A stretch of DNA of 45,893 nucleotides from positions 1-45,893 of IMG/VR virus record IMGVR_UViG_3300036792_000545. One strand, 5' to 3'. The notes below the pieces were generated by a model. That model was given only the letters and a program-made list of their open reading frames with translations. It ran no database searches and was not told the DNA's origin. Positions 15,658 to 42,461 of the stretch are shown in pieces. The position numbers and the translations under genes were made by a program. Within the stretch, counting starts at the first letter, position 1, and every line of letters starts with the position of its first letter. Origin of the DNA: a virus.

Positions 15658-16785
15658 ATGCCGACCGAAGTCTATACCATGCAGAAAAATAGCGAACGAA
15701 AGCAGTTCGCGGGAATTCAGGCGCTCCGTGGGATTGCTGCATGCATGGTCGTTGCTACGCATGCAACATTTCTATGGAGTCAGGATTTTGGGGGCAACAA
15801 TAATTCTTCCTTTTGGGAGAATGGGTCTTCTGGGGTAGACATATTCTTCGTCATAAGCGGGTTCGTCATGGCGATCTCCATCAAGAATCTAACGTGGTCA
15901 AAATTTATCGGAAGACGCCTGCTTAGAATCGCCCCGCTCTACTGGCTGATCACTTCGCTCACACTGCTCAAGTTGTTAGCAATTGCGATTCACCCATCGC
16001 TCGCAATCAACGCCACGCACCTTCACGTGCCATTGGATTACATCCTGGCATCCTTTTTATTTATCCCCTACCGAAACTCGGTCGGCCTCATACAGCCAAT
16101 TGTTTCTGCGGGATGGACGCTCTCTTTTGAGATGTTCTTCTATTGCCTATTTGCTCTTGCTCTGGCGCTCAAGGTGCACGTAGTTCGCTTCCTGACCCCC
16201 ACGCTTATCATCCTCGCGTTGGTTGGATTGCTCCACACGGGCAAATGGCCCTCAGTGACCGAATTAGCTAGCCCGCTGCTACTGGAGTTCCTCGCCGGGG
16301 TTCTTCTGGCATATGCGGTAGGATTCGGTTTCCGCATAAACGCTGCGGTCTCTTCATTCTTAGGAATCATTGGATTTTCGGGGGTCATGACTCTCCATAT
16401 TCCCAATTTTCCCGGAGGAAGAGCGCTAGCATGGGGGGCTTCCGCCTTCCTTGTCGTGCAAGCATTCGTGATGCTCGAAGATAAGCTCGGGACCTTCATC
16501 CCTCGCTGGATTTTGCGCATCGGAGATGCCTCCTACTCGCTTTACTTGGGACACATGCTTGTAGGTTTGGCGGCCGTCCGGATCATCATTATGACTGGCA
16601 TTCCATCCTCCAGCGAGGCACTCCTTGCCGCCATATTGATAGTAATTTCAGTCGCGACTTCGCTGCCATTGCACAGTTACGTCGAGAAGCCGCTTACGGC
16701 GTGGTGCTCGCGTGCGTGGAGTCGTGATGCACGGCTAGTTGATGACCGTATAGCTCAAGCACGCCGGGTTAGTCGTACGGTCTGA
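15658..16785 (+). CDS. Acyltransferase-3 family protein (OafA/YrhL-like), lysogenic conversion candidate
   Basis: 375-residue integral membrane O-acyltransferase with about ten hydrophobic helices. Family signatures: IQALRGIAACMVVATHA with the catalytic-type His near the end of helix 1, SSGVDIFFVISGFVM, RRLLRIAPLYWL, WTLSFEMFFY, GDASYSLYLGH and a final YVEKPLT. Such enzymes O-acetylate surface glycans. In phages like P22, SfV and Sf6 this changes the O antigen and blocks superinfection. It lies alone on the plus strand between the lysis cassette and the tailspike gene with its own promoter and less GC-rich codons, as expected of a moron. AAGAGGAG precedes the ATG. Confidence 0.9.
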   Translation: MPTEVYTMQKNSERKQFAGIQALRGIAACMVVATHATFLWSQDFGGNNNSSFWENGSSGVDIFFVISGFVMAISIKNLTWSKFIGRRLLRIAPLYWLITSLTLLKLLAIAIHPSLAINATHLHVPLDYILASFLFIPYRNSVGLIQPIVSAGWTLSFEMFFYCLFALALALKVHVVRFLTPTLIILALVGLLHTGKWPSVTELASPLLLEFLAGVLLAYAVGFGFRINAAVSSFLGIIGFSGVMTLHIPNFPGGRALAWGASAFLVVQAFVMLEDKLGTFIPRWILRIGDASYSLYLGHMLVGLAAVRIIIMTGIPSSSEALLAAILIVISVATSLPLHSYVEKPLTAWCSRAWSRDARLVDDRIAQARRVSRTV

Positions 16786-31560: not shown

Positions 31561-32205
31561 TCAAGCTCCTAGTTGCATCATGCCAAGTTGGGTGCGCTGT
31601 GCGATCGCCATCGCCTGCGCCATCGTGCGCTCCATCAGTTCCATGCGCTTCTGCACCATTGGCGAGCCGCGGCGGATGCGGTGCGCGCTACGAGAGTCGG
31701 CAAGGATGCGATCAGCCTCCGCCTCCTCAGCTGCCTGCTCCTCCTCAAACACCGCGAGCTTCTGATCATCCGTGAGCCGGTTCCATCCCTGGATCAGTGG
31801 AATCATCACATCGAGGATGAAATGCGTTGGCTCCATCCGCGTCGTGTACCACTCGCTGCCGATTAGCTCGCGGTGGATCAACTTGCGGATGCAGCGATAG
31901 CGGCCGTGATATGGATACTGGCCCAACGTCACGAGGCCGGTGTGCTCATCGGTGTGGTCCTTATACCAGCGGTAGGCGGTGCCGTTGAACTCGGCAGGCT
32001 CCCACATCATGATCGCCCAGCACGCCTCGCCGCCGAGCGCAGGCACATCGCGGTAGCCCTCGAACCCATCCTTCATGAAGTAGCCGCCGTCGCGCATGCT
32101 CGCGGACTCACCCCATACGAGCTTGAAGCGTGGCTCTCCGTAGCGGTTCGTTCCGCCGACGCGGGTCAGGCGCTCCTGGAACCACTCGGGGCACTCCCTA
32201 AACAT
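31561..32205 (-). CDS. Hypothetical structural-region protein
   Basis: 214-residue protein. A Trp/Tyr-rich first part (MFRECPEWFQERLTRVGG, then YRWYKDHTDEHTGL) precedes a strongly helical charged C-terminus (LTDDQKLAVFEEEQAAEEAEADRI). ATG at 32205 overlaps the GroES-like gene's stop by a few bases; earlier starts are inside that gene. No family recognised. Position suggests a head-completion or scaffold-accessory role. Confidence 0.55.
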   Translation of the reverse strand: MFRECPEWFQERLTRVGGTNRYGEPRFKLVWGESASMRDGGYFMKDGFEGYRDVPALGGEACWAIMMWEPAEFNGTAYRWYKDHTDEHTGLVTLGQYPYHGRYRCIRKLIHRELIGSEWYTTRMEPTHFILDVMIPLIQGWNRLTDDQKLAVFEEEQAAEEAEADRILADSRSAHRIRRGSPMVQKRMELMERTMAQAMAIAQRTQLGMMQLGA

Positions 32206-32590
32206 AGGGATGGCGCCCTTTCCCAGTAGGAAATTCACTGGATCTCTGCTGGATTCCACCGCTCGTCTTTACGCGCCCCTGAATGTCGTCATAGCGGATG
32301 AGATAGAACTTGGTCGCGCCGGGCAACTCATCCTCGACCCTGAATGTCTGGTAGTCGCGGCCAAACTCGTTGGTCTTCACGATGTCGCCCACCTTATAGG
32401 GCATCGGGACCATCAGGCCGCCGCGCGGGAACTGCGTGTCGCAGGAGAGCACCTTTCCAAACTGCGGCTTGCGGGACGCCTTGTGCGTGCGGACAATCTC
32501 TTGCCCATTCGCCATCACTACACCAGTTCCAGTTGCGTTCTCCACGGGAATCTCTTCGATCAGCAGTACGTCAAGGAATGTCTCGATCAT
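32198..32590 (-). CDS. GroES-like co-chaperonin
   Basis: 130-residue protein with a GroES-like order of segments: FLDVLLIEEIPVE (first strand), a loop with GTGVVMANGQ, KPQFGKVLSCD, MPYKVGDIVKTNEFG and finally KFYLIRYDDIQGRV, matching the K-x-G-x-V, K-V-G-D-x-V and Y-L-I-R-x-x-D-I landmarks of Cpn10. The GroEL-binding mobile loop (about residues 18-40) seems long. The gene lies directly after the major capsid gene, as expected if, like T4 gp31, it helps GroEL fold capsid protein. The C-terminus extends beyond the GroES fold. Similarity is by eye. Confidence 0.6.
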   Translation of the reverse strand: MIETFLDVLLIEEIPVENATGTGVVMANGQEIVRTHKASRKPQFGKVLSCDTQFPRGGLMVPMPYKVGDIVKTNEFGRDYQTFRVEDELPGATKFYLIRYDDIQGRVKTSGGIQQRSSEFPTGKGRHPYV

Positions 32591-32633
32591 GTCTCTCCTG
32601 AAACCGGGGGTGATGCGCTCACCCCCGAAGCGG

Positions 32634-33989
32634 TTAGAGGTTTACGACAGGGAGTCCCTGCAGATAGAAGCCGCCCTTGGGATTGTTGTTGACGAGCTGG
32701 AATCCACGCTCGTAACCGAACATCTGCGAGTCGTAGTACGTCGCGTTCGCACCGCCACCGATGGCCGGAACCGCAGCGATCGTGTTGCCGGGGGTCCACT
32801 CATGCAAGCGGGTCGGGAACAGTTCGCCGAAGTACCAGTCGTCCTCGACGATGTAGTCCATGCGGGTCGGCTCTGCGGTCGATGCCCAGACGACATCCTC
32901 ACCGAGGAACGTCTTCTGCATCATCTTGCGCGCGGTGTCGGGAACGTTCTCCTTCTCGCCCTCATCCAGCCGCGTGTAGCCGGTGCTGTAGAAGTTGTTC
33001 GAGAGGGGAAGCCCCTGCGCCGCATTGCCGAGCCAGAACGCCTTCTGGTTCGCGTCGTAGTCATCGCCCAGGGCACGCATGCGAATCGCCTGGATGCGCT
33101 GTGCAGTGGAGTTGACGACGGCGCCGTTGCCGCCGAAGTTGATGGTGGGAGTCGAGAGGCGGCCGGGATAGTTCGCCTTGGCGATGCCACCGATGGTTCC
33201 GGTGTTGCCGTTGGCGAGCCAGTAGTCCTTGCCGAGGATGGACGACCCAGCCGCACCAGTGGCACCCTGCACGACGAGGATGTCGCCGGTCGTGGTGCCA
33301 GTCGGGAGCGCAGTCGTCGAGTAGACCGTCTGCGCCACCGGATCGACGTAGCTGATGGTGAAGCTGCCGCGATTGGTGCCGCCGACCGCCGAGAGCACCT
33401 GCACGGTCTGCTGGTCCGAGAACGAGCCCGCCGTGTTCAGGCCGACGATGCTGGAGTAGGTCGGGGAGCCGGAAGCGCCGCCGCCAGTCGCGTTGTTCAC
33501 GGTCGCGGTGGTCGGGATCTGGTCGATGGTTCCCGATCCGTCGCGGTGGATGATGCCCTCGACTCCGTTGTCGAAGGCCTTGAGCGAGTTCTGCAGCTCC
33601 TCGCGCTTGATCTTGACGAGGCCGCGGTCCTTGCCATCGGTCGCCTGCATCGCGAGGTTCGAAATCTCGCAGACGTTCACGAGGCGCACTGGAGCGGCCA
33701 CAAAGCCATCGAAGGTCGAGCCCGTGCCGCGGCCCCAGGTGAAGATCGCGCCGGAGGTGTCCGCAGTCGCCTGCTGGATCGCAGCGCCACCCTGCGCACG
33801 GAAGGGAACGCGCATCGGAGCGCGGCTGACGCCTCCGCCCTGCGTCGCGTTCGAGATGTCCATCTTGTGAGCGCCCTTTTCGAGGCGCGTCAGGAAGCGG
33901 TCAAAATGCTGTTGGTAGTCGGGGATCTCTTCGACCCATGCATCGAGCTCAATGGCCTCTGCGGCCAGCTCGTTCATTGGAACGCCCAT
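32634..33989 (-). CDS. Major capsid protein
   Basis: 451-residue protein that should form the icosahedral shell (HK97 fold). The N-terminal ~100 residues are helical, with LERRASFQ-like character absent but FRAQGGAAIQQATADTSG and EISNLAMQATDGKDRGLVKIKREEL typical of phage capsid proteins that follow scaffold genes. Residues 180-290 are a Gly/Ser/Thr insertion domain; the C-terminal part (TARKMMQKTFLGEDVVW, VEDDWYFGELFPTRLHEW) has the P-domain feel. It follows the portal and scaffold genes and is preceded by its own strong promoter and leader. The product call rests on size, order and the promoter. Confidence 0.75.
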   Translation of the reverse strand: MGVPMNELAAEAIELDAWVEEIPDYQQHFDRFLTRLEKGAHKMDISNATQGGGVSRAPMRVPFRAQGGAAIQQATADTSGAIFTWGRGTGSTFDGFVAAPVRLVNVCEISNLAMQATDGKDRGLVKIKREELQNSLKAFDNGVEGIIHRDGSGTIDQIPTTATVNNATGGGASGSPTYSSIVGLNTAGSFSDQQTVQVLSAVGGTNRGSFTISYVDPVAQTVYSTTALPTGTTTGDILVVQGATGAAGSSILGKDYWLANGNTGTIGGIAKANYPGRLSTPTINFGGNGAVVNSTAQRIQAIRMRALGDDYDANQKAFWLGNAAQGLPLSNNFYSTGYTRLDEGEKENVPDTARKMMQKTFLGEDVVWASTAEPTRMDYIVEDDWYFGELFPTRLHEWTPGNTIAAVPAIGGGANATYYDSQMFGYERGFQLVNNNPKGGFYLQGLPVVNL

Positions 33990-34125: not shown

Positions 34126-34153
34126 ATAATACCACTTTACATATCCGCGTCAA
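34126..34153 (-). promoter_or_regulatory. Strong sigma70-like promoter for the capsid gene
   Basis: On the minus strand TTGACG (complement of 34148-34153) and TATTAT (complement of 34126-34131) are 16 bases apart, a near-consensus promoter. The RNA would start near 34119, giving a leader of about 130 bases before the capsid ATG. It lies in the only sizeable gap of the late region, after the fibre-like gene. Confidence 0.65.
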
Positions 34154-34178: not shown

Positions 34179-35060
34179 TTAGTAATCCTCAAGTACCAGC
34201 GAACCGGTAGTGGTCGCTCCGGTTACCGTTACCGCCGTGGTGCTGACCGATGTGGCAATCGACGCCGCCACATTATTGCTGGCGTAAACGCTGGGAGCGT
34301 TTACGAATGCCACTGGGTAGGTATAGCTGGCCGTGCCCAGGCATGCTGCAAGATGGATTGTCACCCGCTTATTGACGCTACCCTGAAAGGGCTCTACGAA
34401 TACTGCCTGCCCGGAGGTGCTGCAAGATACAGTGGTCTGATTGCCGGTGATAGTAAGTGCTTTTGAAGCACTCAATGTGGCCATCCCTCCAAAACTTCCA
34501 CCGTTGTTCAGGTAGGCTTTCTGAATAAATACTTCAGACCCCAGGGGGTGAGCAGGGCTGCCATATAGATACCAATCTTGATTGTTATCGAAGCAGGTCG
34601 CACTTGCTGCATAGCTAACCCCGGAAGACCATACGTGCTGGACTAAGCACCCATACCCAGAGGGGATCCCATTTGTCGAGCCGCTATTCGTTGAGGTAAC
34701 CTGCGTCAACGTACTCGGAGTCGCTGTGGCATCCCCATTCAAGGTTCCTGGGTAGAGCGTTCCTGCTGCCGGTGTGACTCCGCCAATCACTGCACCGTCG
34801 ATCGTGCCGCCAGTGATGGCCGCTGTTGCTCCACTGCCCGGCGCTGCAGCGATCGGATTCCACCATGTCGGGTTGGAGGATGGAGTCTCGACGGCATTGT
34901 TTGACTGCAGCGAAACATATGTCGTCCCGTTGTAGGTGACAATATTGCCCGCCGTGTACACCGTGTAGGAGTTCCACGCATCTCCTGGGCGTGGACCAGT
35001 CTGCGCTACAGCGAATATGGGGAGGAGCAGCAACAGCAATGCGGCGAAGCGAACTTTCAT
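34179..35060 (-). CDS. Secreted/fibre-like protein with CBM5/12-type chitin-binding module
   Basis: 293-residue protein with a perfect-looking Sec signal peptide (MKVRFAALLLLLLPIF, then AVAQ). Residues about 28-68 form a carbohydrate-binding module of the CBM5/12 kind: WNSYTVYTAGNIVTYNG, then YVSLQSNN and NPTWW, with the aromatic residues expected for chitin or cellulose binding. GGTIDGAVIGGVTPAAGTLYPG recalls tail-fibre segments, and a beta-rich C-terminus follows. It sits between the scaffold and capsid genes, where head fibres or decoration proteins are often encoded. The export signal is unexplained. Confidence 0.65.
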   Translation of the reverse strand: MKVRFAALLLLLLPIFAVAQTGPRPGDAWNSYTVYTAGNIVTYNGTTYVSLQSNNAVETPSSNPTWWNPIAAAPGSGATAAITGGTIDGAVIGGVTPAAGTLYPGTLNGDATATPSTLTQVTSTNSGSTNGIPSGYGCLVQHVWSSGVSYAASATCFDNNQDWYLYGSPAHPLGSEVFIQKAYLNNGGSFGGMATLSASKALTITGNQTTVSCSTSGQAVFVEPFQGSVNKRVTIHLAACLGTASYTYPVAFVNAPSVYASNNVAASIATSVSTTAVTVTGATTTGSLVLEDY

Positions 35061-35069
35061 GGTTCTCCT

Positions 35070-36383
35070 TTATGGCTTGCGAACTTGAATCCACTTTCCG
35101 GTGCGGAGCCGATAAATCTTCTGCGTTAGATCGGACAGCGGCGTACCCTGATGGTCGATCTCATGCATGGGCGGCTTCACGGAGACAACCTGTACCTGCC
35201 GGCCGGACACAACTGCCGGCTTGGCAACACCGGGGCGCGCGGCGACAGCAGGCTTTGGCTTCCCCCCGCTCAGAAACGAATCCCACCGCTCGGCCTTGAC
35301 CGCCTCGAATGCCTGCTTTCCCTTAGCCGCGAGATTGATCTTGATCCAGTTCTTCACGGCTGCAGGATCTGGATTCTTCTGGCCTCGATACAACTTCAGC
35401 TGCTTGTCGTAGTTCGGATCAGCCTTGCACGCTGCTGCAATCTTGGCCTTGAAGTCGGATATCGCCGCCTGCTTCTGCGTCTCTGAGAGTTTCAGGCGCT
35501 GCGCATAGGGCTTGAACAGCTCGTCAAACTTGTCGTTCTCCATCTTGACGGCATCGGGGCGGATGTTTGTCTTCCAGTGCTGCTCCTGCTTCTCCTGCTC
35601 GAACTGCGTCCTCTCCTGCTGGAACTTGTCGCGGTCAGTATCGGTCGCCGCCGGCGTCTTGAGCGTGCCCGCCTTGTCCGCCTGCGCGTTGAACCATGCA
35701 CCCATACGCCCAAGTGTCTGCAGCGTGAACTGCATCTTCGTCTTTTCGTCGAAGCGCGGGTCGTTCTGCGCATTCAGCACGTCCACCAGCGAATTGAACT
35801 CCTTCACCAGGTCGGAGGACGCGAGCGCGCTCACGAAATGTGGCAGGATCGCAGCATTGTAGGCAGCTGGGTCGGACTTCATCACGCGATCGAGTATGGT
35901 TGGCGTCAGCTTGGCCAGGCCGGAGTTGAAGTCGTCCCCCAGAGCATCGAGCGCCTTCGGATCACCGGATGCGAGCAGGCTGTCGACCTCCTCCGTCTGC
36001 GTCAGGCGCTCCTGCAGCTCCGTGATCGCCTCGGCGCCGCGCACGTCGCCCACTGCGAGCGATTCCAGCAGCGCGTACTTCTCGCGCACGCCGTCGACTC
36101 CCTTCGGCTCCAGTTGCTGGAGCGCGAACAAGCGCGCGTGGTTGTCGCGGGACGCTTTAGCGAACTTTGCCTGATCGGGATTCGCCGCCTCCCATGCCTT
36201 CGTAGCTGCGCGGAATTCGCGGGAGAACTTGGTCGTGTAGGGGTCGTCCTTCGCCGATGCGGAGGTGGCTTCTTCACCATCGGCTACTTCTGGAGATTCG
36301 GGCGAGTCGCCTTCTTGGGTTTCGAGTTCTCCTAGTTCAGCGTCAATCTCTGGTGTATCCAGAACTGCATCCATTCCGTCCAT
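35070..36383 (-). CDS. Scaffolding protein
   Basis: 437-residue, highly charged, mostly helical protein. The N-terminus is acidic (DTPEIDAELGELETQEGD), the centre has coiled-coil-like Gln/Glu/Lys runs (FQQERTQFEQEKQEQ) and the C-terminus is basic (RLRTGKWIQVRKP), which fits a scaffold that touches the capsid subunits through its basic tail. It lies between portal and capsid genes, the P22 order portal-scaffold-coat. The name is by composition and position. Confidence 0.7.
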   Translation of the reverse strand: MDGMDAVLDTPEIDAELGELETQEGDSPESPEVADGEEATSASAKDDPYTTKFSREFRAATKAWEAANPDQAKFAKASRDNHARLFALQQLEPKGVDGVREKYALLESLAVGDVRGAEAITELQERLTQTEEVDSLLASGDPKALDALGDDFNSGLAKLTPTILDRVMKSDPAAYNAAILPHFVSALASSDLVKEFNSLVDVLNAQNDPRFDEKTKMQFTLQTLGRMGAWFNAQADKAGTLKTPAATDTDRDKFQQERTQFEQEKQEQHWKTNIRPDAVKMENDKFDELFKPYAQRLKLSETQKQAAISDFKAKIAAACKADPNYDKQLKLYRGQKNPDPAAVKNWIKINLAAKGKQAFEAVKAERWDSFLSGGKPKPAVAARPGVAKPAVVSGRQVQVVSVKPPMHEIDHQGTPLSDLTQKIYRLRTGKWIQVRKP

Positions 36384-36547: not shown

Positions 36548-39130
36548 CTAGCTCAACTTTCCGCTTGGGTTAACCATGCTCGTCTTCTGCTTTACCGGAA
36601 CCCCATTCGCATCCACGCCGTTCTTCTCGACGGTGACCTCATGCGGCACCAACTCCTGCGAATCTTCCCAGTCAGCGACCGGAGCCTGTACGCCCAGCGC
36701 GCCCCATGCCTGCGCCTGCACGCTCGGCGGCGCCTTGTCGATCGCGGCCGTGACTGAGAACTTGGCATCGATCGGCGGCACCGGCGTCAACTTCGCCTTC
36801 ATCTGCTCATGCTCCTGCCAGTGCAGCTTCAGGTTCGCGTAGATCGCCTGCTGCTCAGGCGTTCCATTCTTAAACTTGCGGCCCTCGGTAGAGGTCATGA
36901 GCCCAAGCGTGATCGCGGAGTGGATAGCGTGGTTCTGGCTGCCATCCTGTGCCACGGGGACGCTCGACACCTGCGGCGGCATAGACTGCGCGGCCTGCTG
37001 CAATTGCTGGAGCGCCTGCTGGCCCTGCGGCGTCTGCGCTTCGGGATCGCCTTCCGCCGCCTGGATCTGCTGCAGGAGCGGAAGCAGTTGCGGATTCGGC
37101 ATCGGACCCGACTGCATCAGCAGTTCAAACTCGCCTTCCTGCTCCTCAACCGCATCGAGGCCGGGAATGGTGAGCCCAGACAGCGATGGGAACTGGCCGA
37201 AGTGGGTAAGGTTGCGCGGATCGCTCGCAATCGCGTTGTAGAGCGCGACCGACTTGCCATTCTCGAGCAGCCCGGCCGCCTGCGCTTCCTGTTCCGCCAT
37301 CGTCTGCGGCATCGCCAGCGTCTCTGGGTAGCAGAGTGCATCGCCCTGCAACTTCGCGAGCTCCACCTTGAGTCGACCCTCGCCAGGAATGTGTCCGCCA
37401 ATATCCGTCACGCGGTTCTGTGCCGCGGAGATAACGGCCTGCTGTGCCGCGTTCGCGATCCCGTAGCAGATCTGGCTCCACGGCATCGAATAGACCTGCA
37501 GCGCCGTGTCGCGCTTGAGCTTCGCGGTCTGGAAGACACCCTGATCAGCGCCTCCCTCCTCGCCGCCGAACATGGCCGGCTGCGCTCCGTCCATCGCCTC
37601 GGGTGCGCCGTCGATGCACCACTGGACGAATTCGAAGATTCCCGTAGTGGGTTGTGGAACGTTCTCGACGCCAGTAATCTGTGGAATCGTCATTCCCGAA
37701 GGCAGGCCAGTAACTGGAGTCGCCTTCGCTGGGTCATTCGACTGCGAGTTCATTGCCTGTACGTCGATGTACGGCTCCATCGCATACCGGCGCGGAACGC
37801 AGGAGCGGAAGTAGCGGTCGAGAAGGCTGATATTCGCGTTCAAGACCTTCTGGATGGGGAGATAGTTGGTCCCGATCGCGCGTCGGTTCTGCCCCGGCCC
37901 CTGCTTCGCATGCAGGACTGTGAGCTTCTTGTTCATGCCCTCATTGCGGACGAATGCGAGCTCGCCAGCAGCATGGACTACCAGAAGCCCGCGGGGGAAG
38001 TTATCGAAGAAAACTTTCTGCGCATCCTCGTCCTTGATGGCGAAGTACTGACTCGGGCGATACCATGTGAAGGTTTCGGTGCTGTCCTGCTGCCAACTCT
38101 CTCCCGAAGAGGTTGATGTCTGCACGGCGAGTCGTACATTGATACGGGCCATGCGGTCCATCTGATCGGACCCACCGACATTACCTCCGGATATAATCTT
38201 GTCCTTGATCCAAGGGTATTTTGCTTTCAGCGTGTTGTTGTTGCGCTCCTTCGAGAGTCGCAGCCATGGCATCTGCGCCATCTTGTCCGCCATCATTGGA
38301 ACCTTTGCTTCAAGCTTGCCAAAGGATTCCGTGATCTCACGCACAGCTGGAACGTCGGTATCGGCGGGAGCGGAATCAGTTGCCTCCGCAGCCTGTTCGC
38401 CGGGCGCGATCATTTCACTCTCGGGAGCGACACCAACTGCCTGCTCCTCACCGAAAACCTGCCGCGGCTCGTCCGGAGTCTCCGTGTCCCATGTCTGCTC
38501 ATCGGCCACCGAGTGCGTATAGAGCACAACGCGATCATCGGTGTAGAATAGGTTCGCGACCTCGCCTACGACTTCCTTGATGTTCGAGTCGTTGAGCCAA
38601 ATCTTGACGTACTTCTCTGCCTCGTCCGCCGCGGTCTGGTCCTCTGGCCGGTCATCGCGCTTGGGCACGAACATGACACCGGGGATCTGCTGCGCGAGCG
38701 CAGACGTTATCTTGTCCTGGCGCGCGCCGAGGACATTGACCGAGAACATCTTCCCGGAGTTCTGGCTTTGCATGATCTCGGAGCCGGATGCACGCGAACC
38801 ATTCACCGCGCCCACCATGCCCCAACCCTGCTTCGAGCTGTTGATGAACTGGTAGTTGCGCACCATCAACTGCAGCTCCCAAGCCTGCAGCACCTCCCAC
38901 AGGCGCGCGGCGGAATCTGCTCGGGTCGCAGTCTCGGTCAGGTCATCTACGGCAGACTTGTACGAGCCCAGTTGGTCGGGTCCGAAGATCGGCTCAGGCG
39001 ACACGTCCCACGCGGCGTACTTGCCGGGGACGTAATCGTAGTCAGAGAAGTTGAGAGGAGTGAGTGCACCCGCGTCTTCGGGTGCTGGTGTATCGTCGGC
39101 GGTTGGGTCGATCTTGGGCGTCGTCGCCAT
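36548..39130 (-). CDS. Portal protein (P22-like)
   Basis: 860-residue protein that should form the dodecameric DNA gate. After a Pro/Ala/Asp-rich N-terminus there is the portal-like body: AARLWEVLQAWELQLMVRNYQF, FSVNVLGARQDKITSALAQQIPG, then VKIWLNDSNIKEVVGEVANLFY. The C-terminal part is Gln/Pro-rich (PLLQQIQAAEGDPEAQTP), like the long helical barrel of podovirus portals. Length, and location directly downstream of small genes next to terminase, fit P22-like portals rather than HK97-like ones, which are shorter. Confidence 0.75.
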   Translation of the reverse strand: MATTPKIDPTADDTPAPEDAGALTPLNFSDYDYVPGKYAAWDVSPEPIFGPDQLGSYKSAVDDLTETATRADSAARLWEVLQAWELQLMVRNYQFINSSKQGWGMVGAVNGSRASGSEIMQSQNSGKMFSVNVLGARQDKITSALAQQIPGVMFVPKRDDRPEDQTAADEAEKYVKIWLNDSNIKEVVGEVANLFYTDDRVVLYTHSVADEQTWDTETPDEPRQVFGEEQAVGVAPESEMIAPGEQAAEATDSAPADTDVPAVREITESFGKLEAKVPMMADKMAQMPWLRLSKERNNNTLKAKYPWIKDKIISGGNVGGSDQMDRMARINVRLAVQTSTSSGESWQQDSTETFTWYRPSQYFAIKDEDAQKVFFDNFPRGLLVVHAAGELAFVRNEGMNKKLTVLHAKQGPGQNRRAIGTNYLPIQKVLNANISLLDRYFRSCVPRRYAMEPYIDVQAMNSQSNDPAKATPVTGLPSGMTIPQITGVENVPQPTTGIFEFVQWCIDGAPEAMDGAQPAMFGGEEGGADQGVFQTAKLKRDTALQVYSMPWSQICYGIANAAQQAVISAAQNRVTDIGGHIPGEGRLKVELAKLQGDALCYPETLAMPQTMAEQEAQAAGLLENGKSVALYNAIASDPRNLTHFGQFPSLSGLTIPGLDAVEEQEGEFELLMQSGPMPNPQLLPLLQQIQAAEGDPEAQTPQGQQALQQLQQAAQSMPPQVSSVPVAQDGSQNHAIHSAITLGLMTSTEGRKFKNGTPEQQAIYANLKLHWQEHEQMKAKLTPVPPIDAKFSVTAAIDKAPPSVQAQAWGALGVQAPVADWEDSQELVPHEVTVEKNGVDANGVPVKQKTSMVNPSGKLS

Positions 39131-40809: not shown

Positions 40810-40883
40810 TGGCACCGGGAAGCGGAATCGAACCGCTGCATTCAGTTTTGGAGACTGAGGTTCTGCCACTAAACTATCCCGGC
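40810..40883 (-). tRNA. tRNA-Trp (CCA anticodon)
   Basis: A 74-base cloverleaf including an encoded CCA end. Acceptor stem GCCGGGA pairs with TCCCGGT (G1-U72 wobble at the top), discriminator G. D stem GTTT/GAAC; anticodon stem TCAGT/ACTGA with the loop CTCCAAA, giving CCA = Trp; T stem AGCGG/CCGCT with loop TTCGATT. All stems pair, so it should be functional. It lies between the large terminase gene and the small-protein cluster, on the late strand, and would be transcribed with the late genes. Confidence 0.92.
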
Positions 40884-40895
40884 AGCGAAAGTCTA

Positions 40896-42461
40896 TCACT
40901 GCCAATAGTGCAGCGGCTTGTTCGCGTTCTTGCGTCGCTCCGTCTCCCGCAGGCGCATGAAGTGCTGCGCTACCGGATCCGTCTCCGCGGCAATCGCCTC
41001 AGCCAGCAACTCCTCCCGCGTCTTGGCATGCGGCACGACCGAGAACGTCATCGCCAGGCAGTCCGCGTTGTCGGGCGAGGAAAGCCCGCGCCGCTTCATG
41101 TCGTCCTTCTTCTCAAGCTGAATCTGCCCGTCCGCATTCGAGAACCCGTACTCAGGACCGGTCAACTCGTCGCCCAGCTCAGGATCGTCTGGGATATCCG
41201 CATCGCCCTTGAGCCAGTCGCGCATCATTCCCCAGACCTCGGCGCGGCGATTGAAGTACATGTCTCCGTCGACGGGTGAGCCGCCACCGTGGAACTCGTG
41301 AACAGTCTTGAATACCTCTGCGAGTGGGTCGCGGTTGCGCTTGCACACCTCGTGCATGTCGCGCAGATTGTCGATCACGCCGGCGCCGATGCCATCGCCA
41401 TCCACGACTGTCTCCCGCGGCTTGAGCTCGCGCATGAACTGGGCCACATGTCGCGACAGTTGCACCGTGTCGAGCCCGCGGTACTTGGCCAGGATAGTGA
41501 ACTTTAGCCCCTGCCGATATCCGATGATGCTCTGATCATCTCCGAACCGCGCCACGTCGACGCTGAGCACGCCGTGCTGCCGCTCATATTCCTCTGGCGG
41601 GCAGGTGTAGGCGCGGCACATGTCCACGATGTCGGACGGGATGAACTGCGTGGATCCAGCGCGCGGAAACTCACCCTTGACGCGCACCCGTACAAAGTCC
41701 GAGTCGTCGCCATAGTCTGCGACCCACTTCTCAAACAGCGCCTTGTTCGTGCCGGGAATCGTGCGCGAGTCAATCTGCTTGCCCTTCCAGCGGTGCTTAA
41801 GCTTGCCGAAGCACTCACGGAAGCGGCCAGTGTTCTGCGTCGGGTTGCCGAACGCCACCCAGATGATCTCCGTGTCCTCGTCGGTGAGCGCCCCCTCGGT
41901 CACCTCCCAGACTTTATCCGCGATCGAGCTCGACTCGTCGTAGATGACCACGATGCGGCGCCCATAGTTGTGCAGGCCGGCGAATGCTTCCGTGTTGTTC
42001 TCGCTCCAGGTGACCGCATCCGCACGCCACAGCCGCTCATGGCCCTTTTCGCGCGACACGATGCTCTCGGCCTTGATATCCCACCAATGCGCGTTGATCG
42101 CCATGCGGAACCACTTGCTTACCTCGGGCCACGTCTTGGTCGCGAGTTGCTTGCCAGTGCCGGCCGTCACCACAATGCGGCAGTCGTCGCAGGTACTCAT
42201 CGCCCAGTTCATAATCATGGCGATCAAAGCGGACTTGCCGATGCCGTGGCCGGACGAGATGGAAAGCTGCAGCGGCGTAAAGCGTTCGGGGCCGTTCAGG
42301 TGATCGCGGATCGTCCGCAGCACGTCACACTGAAACTCGCGCGGGCCGTCGATCTTGGACAACTCTCCAGGCTCCGACCATGGGAACGCGTAGCGCGCAA
42401 ACCCGAGTGGGTCGCGCACGAAGCCGGCAATGTCGTCGATGAGTTGTTCGGCGGCGGTCAT
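40896..42461 (-). CDS. terL: Terminase large subunit
   Basis: 521-residue packaging motor. ATPase domain: Walker A GHGIGKS at residues 71-77 and Walker B VVIYDE at 171-176, whose Glu is the catalytic base. Coupling-type NPTQNTGRF follows. The RNase-H-like nuclease has Asp302 in SVDVARFGDD, Asp354 in VVDGDG and Asp464/467 in SSPDNADCLAM. The length is normal. Translation is coupled with the small subunit (ATGA overlap). The motor takes DNA from concatemers into the prohead through the portal. Confidence 0.95.
   Translation of the reverse strand: MTAAEQLIDDIAGFVRDPLGFARYAFPWSEPGELSKIDGPREFQCDVLRTIRDHLNGPERFTPLQLSISSGHGIGKSALIAMIMNWAMSTCDDCRIVVTAGTGKQLATKTWPEVSKWFRMAINAHWWDIKAESIVSREKGHERLWRADAVTWSENNTEAFAGLHNYGRRIVVIYDESSSIADKVWEVTEGALTDEDTEIIWVAFGNPTQNTGRFRECFGKLKHRWKGKQIDSRTIPGTNKALFEKWVADYGDDSDFVRVRVKGEFPRAGSTQFIPSDIVDMCRAYTCPPEEYERQHGVLSVDVARFGDDQSIIGYRQGLKFTILAKYRGLDTVQLSRHVAQFMRELKPRETVVDGDGIGAGVIDNLRDMHEVCKRNRDPLAEVFKTVHEFHGGGSPVDGDMYFNRRAEVWGMMRDWLKGDADIPDDPELGDELTGPEYGFSNADGQIQLEKKDDMKRRGLSSPDNADCLAMTFSVVPHAKTREELLAEAIAAETDPVAQHFMRLRETERRKNANKPLHYWQ

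Follow-up and report, generated by a model that had tools for sequence, protein, structure and literature searches.

A Cpn10-family co-chaperonin encoded directly after the probable major capsid gene of an uncultivated phage

Does the small gene lying directly behind the probable capsid gene of an uncultivated phage encode a GroES-like co-chaperonin and, if it does, on which chaperonin and for which proteins would it act? The gene belongs to IMG/VR record IMGVR_UViG_3300036792_000545, whose full 45,893 bp were analyzed and are called the window here. The record probably represents a temperate phage, with an integrase-family protein encoded at 1-1176, and the structural genes of the window lie on the minus strand. 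The initial annotation placed the reading frame at 32198-32590 on the minus strand with 130 residues, exactly as found here. It begins with ATG, has AGGAGAG just upstream, and encodes a protein of 14.6 kDa.

Sequence searches confirm that this protein belongs to the Cpn10 (GroES) family. Taken alone, it matches phrog_3188, "co-chaperonin GroES", in a nearly full-length alignment (E 2.1e-6, residues 3-107), while being diverged from the sequences in phage records. Its match to Pfam PF00166 (Cpn10) spans residues 5-105 and scores 15.8 bits (E 0.015), under the gathering cut-off of 21.1, and single-sequence matches to GroES in the PDB are weak (best E 0.037). Relatives give clearer results. The protein of L057, 66% identical to that of the window, reaches 24.0 bits in Pfam Cpn10, and eight of the nine relatives' proteins scanned exceed the curated cut-off, the ninth (L061) falling short by 0.5 bit.

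These relatives were gathered with the portal protein as query, which returned 52 viral loci, and with the capsid protein, which returned one; an iterated profile search of the reading frames in those loci then yielded 24 Cpn10-like frames, counting that of the window; contig ends truncate two of the 24. A profile built from an alignment of 18 of these frames (A1) retrieves solved GroES chains in the PDB with a best E of 5.8e-7. All 18 members match Pfam Cpn10 at E<=1 (best 8.1e-11), and the reverse search, run with the family profile, reaches Salmonella GroES with E 9.4e-7. In tblastn against a set of 50,697 phage records, the window protein, its relative from L043, the window and L009 capsid proteins and the portal protein all remained without a match, and the L009 co-chaperonin reached 14 records, none with an E below 1. 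Likewise, a scan of viral contigs with the window protein and one of genome contigs with the portal protein returned no relative.

The gene is under purifying selection, since dN/dS is 0.07-0.16 in the seven close pairs, whose dS lies between 0.02 and 0.8. The window and L060 genes give 0.26 at a dS of 1.65, and distant pairs, which are near saturation, reach values of up to 1.0.

Predicted structure points the same way. The AlphaFold2 model has moderate confidence (mean pLDDT 69.2), with values below 50 at residues 26-30 and 33-39 and a C-terminal tail that is also low in confidence. Strands are predicted at residues 8-13, 44-49, 53-56, 59-62, 70-73, 95-99 and 103-106, with a low-confidence loop at 26-39; in structure comparison this arrangement agrees with Cpn10, bearing out the strand and loop order read from the sequence at the outset. 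In a Foldseek search of the PDB, ranks 1 to 28 are all Cpn10-type chains (E 1.3e-4 to 0.39, best probability 1.00), including two 7ekq rows that are Cpn20/Cpn23 subunits; the Cpn10 rows have TM-scores of 0.39-0.49 when normalized to the length of the query. The comparison with GroES and T4 gp31 that had been proposed as a check finds resemblance to both: VIA aligns the model with GroES 4pko_O at Z 8.8 (89 residues, rmsd 3.3 A) and with gp31 at Z 6.7 (2cgt) and 6.4 (1g31). Among the viral models of BFVD, those named GroES top the match list. At this moderate confidence, the protein is thus predicted to adopt the Cpn10 beta-barrel.

Two other accounts of the resemblance were rejected. Chance similarity to Cpn10 is ruled out by the family and structure searches together with conservation. 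A relationship to alcohol dehydrogenases, which have a GroES-like domain, is rejected on VIA scores of Z 5.0 or less against 8.8 for GroES; Pfam ADH_N appears in six of the 18 A1 members, with a best E of 0.0092.

Within this fold, the phage proteins depart from bacterial GroES in specific segments, measured as the number of residues between conserved anchors. GroES proteins of Salmonella and of three Acidobacteriota metagenome-assembled genomes (MAGs) are homologous to the window protein over the barrel, and the window protein has K-P-x-x-G after the mobile loop, as host GroES does. In these GroES proteins the mobile-loop segment spans 29 residues, the roof 26 and the C-terminal segment 23-24; the corresponding counts for the window protein are 37, 25 and 30. 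Across the 22 aligned members of the phage family, the mobile-loop segment measures 33-42 residues and always exceeds that of GroES, by 4-13 residues; the roof has 25 residues in 16 members and 17 in six, and the C-terminal segment has 30-35.

The predicted mobile loop of the window protein, at about residues 23-40 (32471-32524, minus strand), is marked by low pLDDT and by the D7-G45 spacing of 37 versus 29, an insertion of about eight residues relative to GroES. It carries V-V-M near the position of I-V-L, the hydrophobic GroEL-binding tripeptide of GroES, and of I-I-I in host GroES, in a register set by inspection; MAFFT placed the host I-I-I-P elsewhere. Near relatives have G-I-V or I-V-T-P in the loop, and the larger subgroup is less canonical; in the family as a whole, many members show I-x-I or less. 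With a hydrophobic motif this variable, some members may not bind GroEL. The roof hairpin region, at about residues 49-65 (32396-32446, minus strand; strands 53-56 and 59-62), is kept in the window protein, where the G45-V71 spacing is 25 versus 26 in GroES, and is lost in the six aligned members with a spacing of 17.

These features make the comparison with T4 gp31, already drawn in the initial annotation, an apt one. Like gp31 (1g31, 2cgt), the family combines the Cpn10 fold with mobile-loop and C-terminal segments longer than those of GroES, and some of its members lack the roof hairpin; unlike gp31, the window member keeps it. PMC6318259 gives the flexible loops of gp31 as 22 residues versus 16 in GroES and describes its roof loops as absent. 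Counted as above, gp31 has 34, 19 and 35 residues, figures drawn from an uncertain alignment, since at the four anchors gp31 has other residues. The window protein and gp31 are 16% identical over the VIA alignment. The distant relative L124, with 27, 18 and 23 residues, indicates that roof loss also occurs without a longer loop.

Upstream of the gene in transcription order lie the terminase large subunit gene (40896-42461, minus strand), about 50% identical to those of Pseudomonas phage AF and of epsilon15-like phages such as Salmonella phage SPN1S, a probable portal gene (36548-39130, minus strand; 860 aa) and a probable scaffold gene (35070-36383, minus strand; 437 aa). The portal assignment comes from size, position and homologues in the 52 viral loci, and that of the scaffold from its place between the portal-like and capsid genes, where relatives have homologues too; neither protein matched a named family in Pfam or PHROGs. 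Between the scaffold-like and capsid genes, 34179-35060 (minus strand) encodes a protein of 293 aa whose hydrophobic N-terminus resembles a signal peptide and which contains a CBM5/12 carbohydrate-binding module (Pfam E 1.1e-7).

The gene at 32634-33989 (minus strand; 451 aa, 47.9 kDa) likely encodes the major capsid protein, although this identity is less firm than that of the Cpn10 protein. It follows the portal-like and scaffold-like genes, and its family, with a mean column identity of 75%, matches NCBIfam capsid_maj_Podo below the cut-off in 17 of 22 members (best E 3.5e-5). PHROGs and PDB profile searches with the capsid protein gave unconvincing matches, and its structure model is uninformative (mean pLDDT 40.6), with a beta domain at about 144-250 that finds middling matches to common folds. 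The statement that the co-chaperonin gene directly follows the capsid gene therefore stands for the spacing, as it starts 43 nt past that gene's stop codon, and is only as firm as the likely capsid identity. Less apt is the earlier rationale of a large capsid protein, because 47.9 kDa compares with about 56 kDa for T4 gp23, as given in PMC6318259. At that mass, a normal chamber of GroEL and GroES would have room for the capsid protein.

The link between the two genes, in turn, is real and extends across the group. Scans with the capsid alignment found 44 viral and five genome loci, making 50 records with the window, of which 41 are informative in having at least 500 nt past the capsid gene; these are not dereplicated, and some are near-identical. 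A Cpn10 gene follows the capsid gene in all 41, directly in 30 and after an insertion in 11. The family profile detects it in 40, and the forty-first is L124, whose capsid protein is 41% identical and whose Cpn10 frame scores 49.5 bits in Pfam, so the pairing persists down to 41% capsid identity. The next gene downstream (31561-32205, minus strand), of the "g232" family, is a conserved neighbor with a homologue in 40 of the 41 informative records. Its likely ATG at 32205, inferred from the first conserved residues, produces an 8-nt overlap with the end of the co-chaperonin gene. Wherever both genes were scored (39 of 39 records), Cpn10 lies between the capsid gene and g232. Nine records have shorter downstream sequence: three contain a partial Cpn10 gene, and six end within 185 nt without one. 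Such constancy suggests a special relation between the Cpn10 and capsid genes.

In the 11 records with an insertion, the gap between the capsid and Cpn10 genes measures about 375-708 nt and holds another reading frame. Eight of these frames were scanned: six belong to the recombination endonuclease VII family (in L009, L010, L012, L021, L027 and L039) and two have no clear family. The endonuclease VII family genes resemble free-standing mobile endonucleases.

Whether the two genes also share a transcript, as first proposed, is less clear-cut. The common strand, the 43-nt gap and the lack of a promoter-like site on the minus strand within that gap make it plausible, but the gap also holds a perfect 9-bp GC-rich hairpin (32605-32627, minus strand) whose counterparts are terminator-like in several relatives. 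This stem is reached in one of 200 dinucleotide shuffles; it lacks a full T-tract, its tail having only three T in a row, and a terminator scan of the window did not list it. Among 34 distinct 130-nt regions past the capsid stop codon (counted without records having less than 600 nt downstream and without repeats of an identical region), 20 have a stem reached by at most 10 of 200 shuffles, and the stem sequences differ between those relatives' hairpins. The other 14 miss that mark, and in many of these the stem is imperfect or a gene has been inserted. In L078, L082, L104, L105 and L118 the hairpin is followed by five or six consecutive T. Lying between the genes, the hairpin suggests a step down in expression from capsid protein to lid, a reading taken from sequence in which the hairpin is no proven terminator. 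Upstream of the pair, a promoter-like site is present about 140 nt before the capsid gene, at 34126-34153 (minus strand; 10 of 12 positions, with TG preceding the second hexamer); 1.4 such sites are expected by chance in the scanned region.

The likely partner of the protein emerges from the hosts. This is a phage of soil bacteria, and the five genome loci with a related capsid gene are all Acidobacteriota MAGs, one of them named Granulicella. Each of the five encodes its own high-scoring GroES and GroEL (the latter in two pieces in G009), with groES adjoining groEL, and three carry a second, phage-type Cpn10 over the cut-off. GroEL was found neither in the 45,893-bp window nor in any of ten related phage records, which may be fragments. 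As none was found there, the phage co-chaperonin most likely caps the GroEL of the host.

Together, these observations favor a lid on host GroEL that aids the folding of phage proteins, above all the capsid protein, with a probability of roughly 0.85. Seven copies would form the lid, and its mobile loops would bind the apical domains of host GroEL. The folding chamber would then be closed, allowing phage proteins to fold inside. The main client would presumably be the capsid protein encoded just upstream, and the lid would be used late in infection. A more elaborate version can be put forward only tentatively: in this group of Acidobacteriota phages, a lid dedicated to the capsid protein that has been altered independently at the same three places as T4 gp31, with a hairpin or weak terminator between the genes, conserved in structure and not in sequence, setting the dose of lid relative to capsid protein.

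The closest alternative drops the capsid protein as special client and keeps the rest. Here, the protein would stand in for host GroES, or add to it, in folding many clients, and adjacency to the capsid gene would reflect late expression alone. T4 gp31 can substitute for GroES with host clients, according to PMC6318259, and phage GroES genes also occur in other contexts: in PBR31 the gene precedes that of the terminase, and in B8b it lies upstream of the tape measure gene (PMC4294664). The capsid pairing that holds to 41% capsid identity speaks against this alternative in a suggestive way, short of proof, and leaves it a possible but doubtful reading.

It is quite improbable that the Cpn10 fold has instead been repurposed as a virion part, for capsid decoration or head completion, with GroEL binding lost. 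In many phages a decoration protein is encoded immediately behind the capsid gene, a place that the gene at issue occupies, and it is always linked to structural genes. Its loop motif is variable, and it evolves faster than the capsid protein (47% against 84% identity between window and L002). Nevertheless, sequence and fold are closest to co-chaperonins, and the mobile-loop segment is predicted to be disordered and has often retained hydrophobic residues. In other phages, GroES genes located near head genes are also annotated as co-chaperonins, an annotation that is no test. A Cpn10-like takeover factor that blocks or redirects host GroEL and gives no folding help is very unlikely. Binding through a changed mobile loop could fail to lead to folding, yet nothing direct favors this and the gene sits among late structural genes, linked to that of the capsid.

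Co-chaperonins encoded by phages are not new. A GroES gene lies close to head genes in Roseobacter phage CRP-902, ct2G2228 and phage 023Pt_psg01, as in the window, but there it precedes the head-protein gene and three genes separate the two, whereas the window gene is directly downstream. Elsewhere, a phage GroES gene adjoins the phage's own groEL, and the 10 kb surrounding gene 31 of T4 contain no annotated capsid gene, unlike in the window. Cpn10 is also a core gene of a flavophage family, according to PMC8776804. The case described here is set apart by its unvarying position behind the capsid gene together with gp31-like remodeling, and it adds an uncultivated group of Acidobacteriota phages whose GroES-like protein is locked to the capsid gene. 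Its roofed and roofless members, with varied loop lengths and similar capsid proteins, offer a clean test set for the old question of what a phage-made lid adds in a host that already has GroES.

Elsewhere in the window, the plus strand carries a phosphoadenosine phosphosulfate reductase-like gene at 1982-2743 (phrog_424, E 5.5e-41) and an O-acetyltransferase-like gene at 15658-16785 (phrog_3333, E 1.6e-49), the latter possibly with a role in surface antigen conversion. A tRNA-Trp gene with anticodon CCA lies at 40810-40883 on the minus strand, just past the 3' end of the terminase gene.
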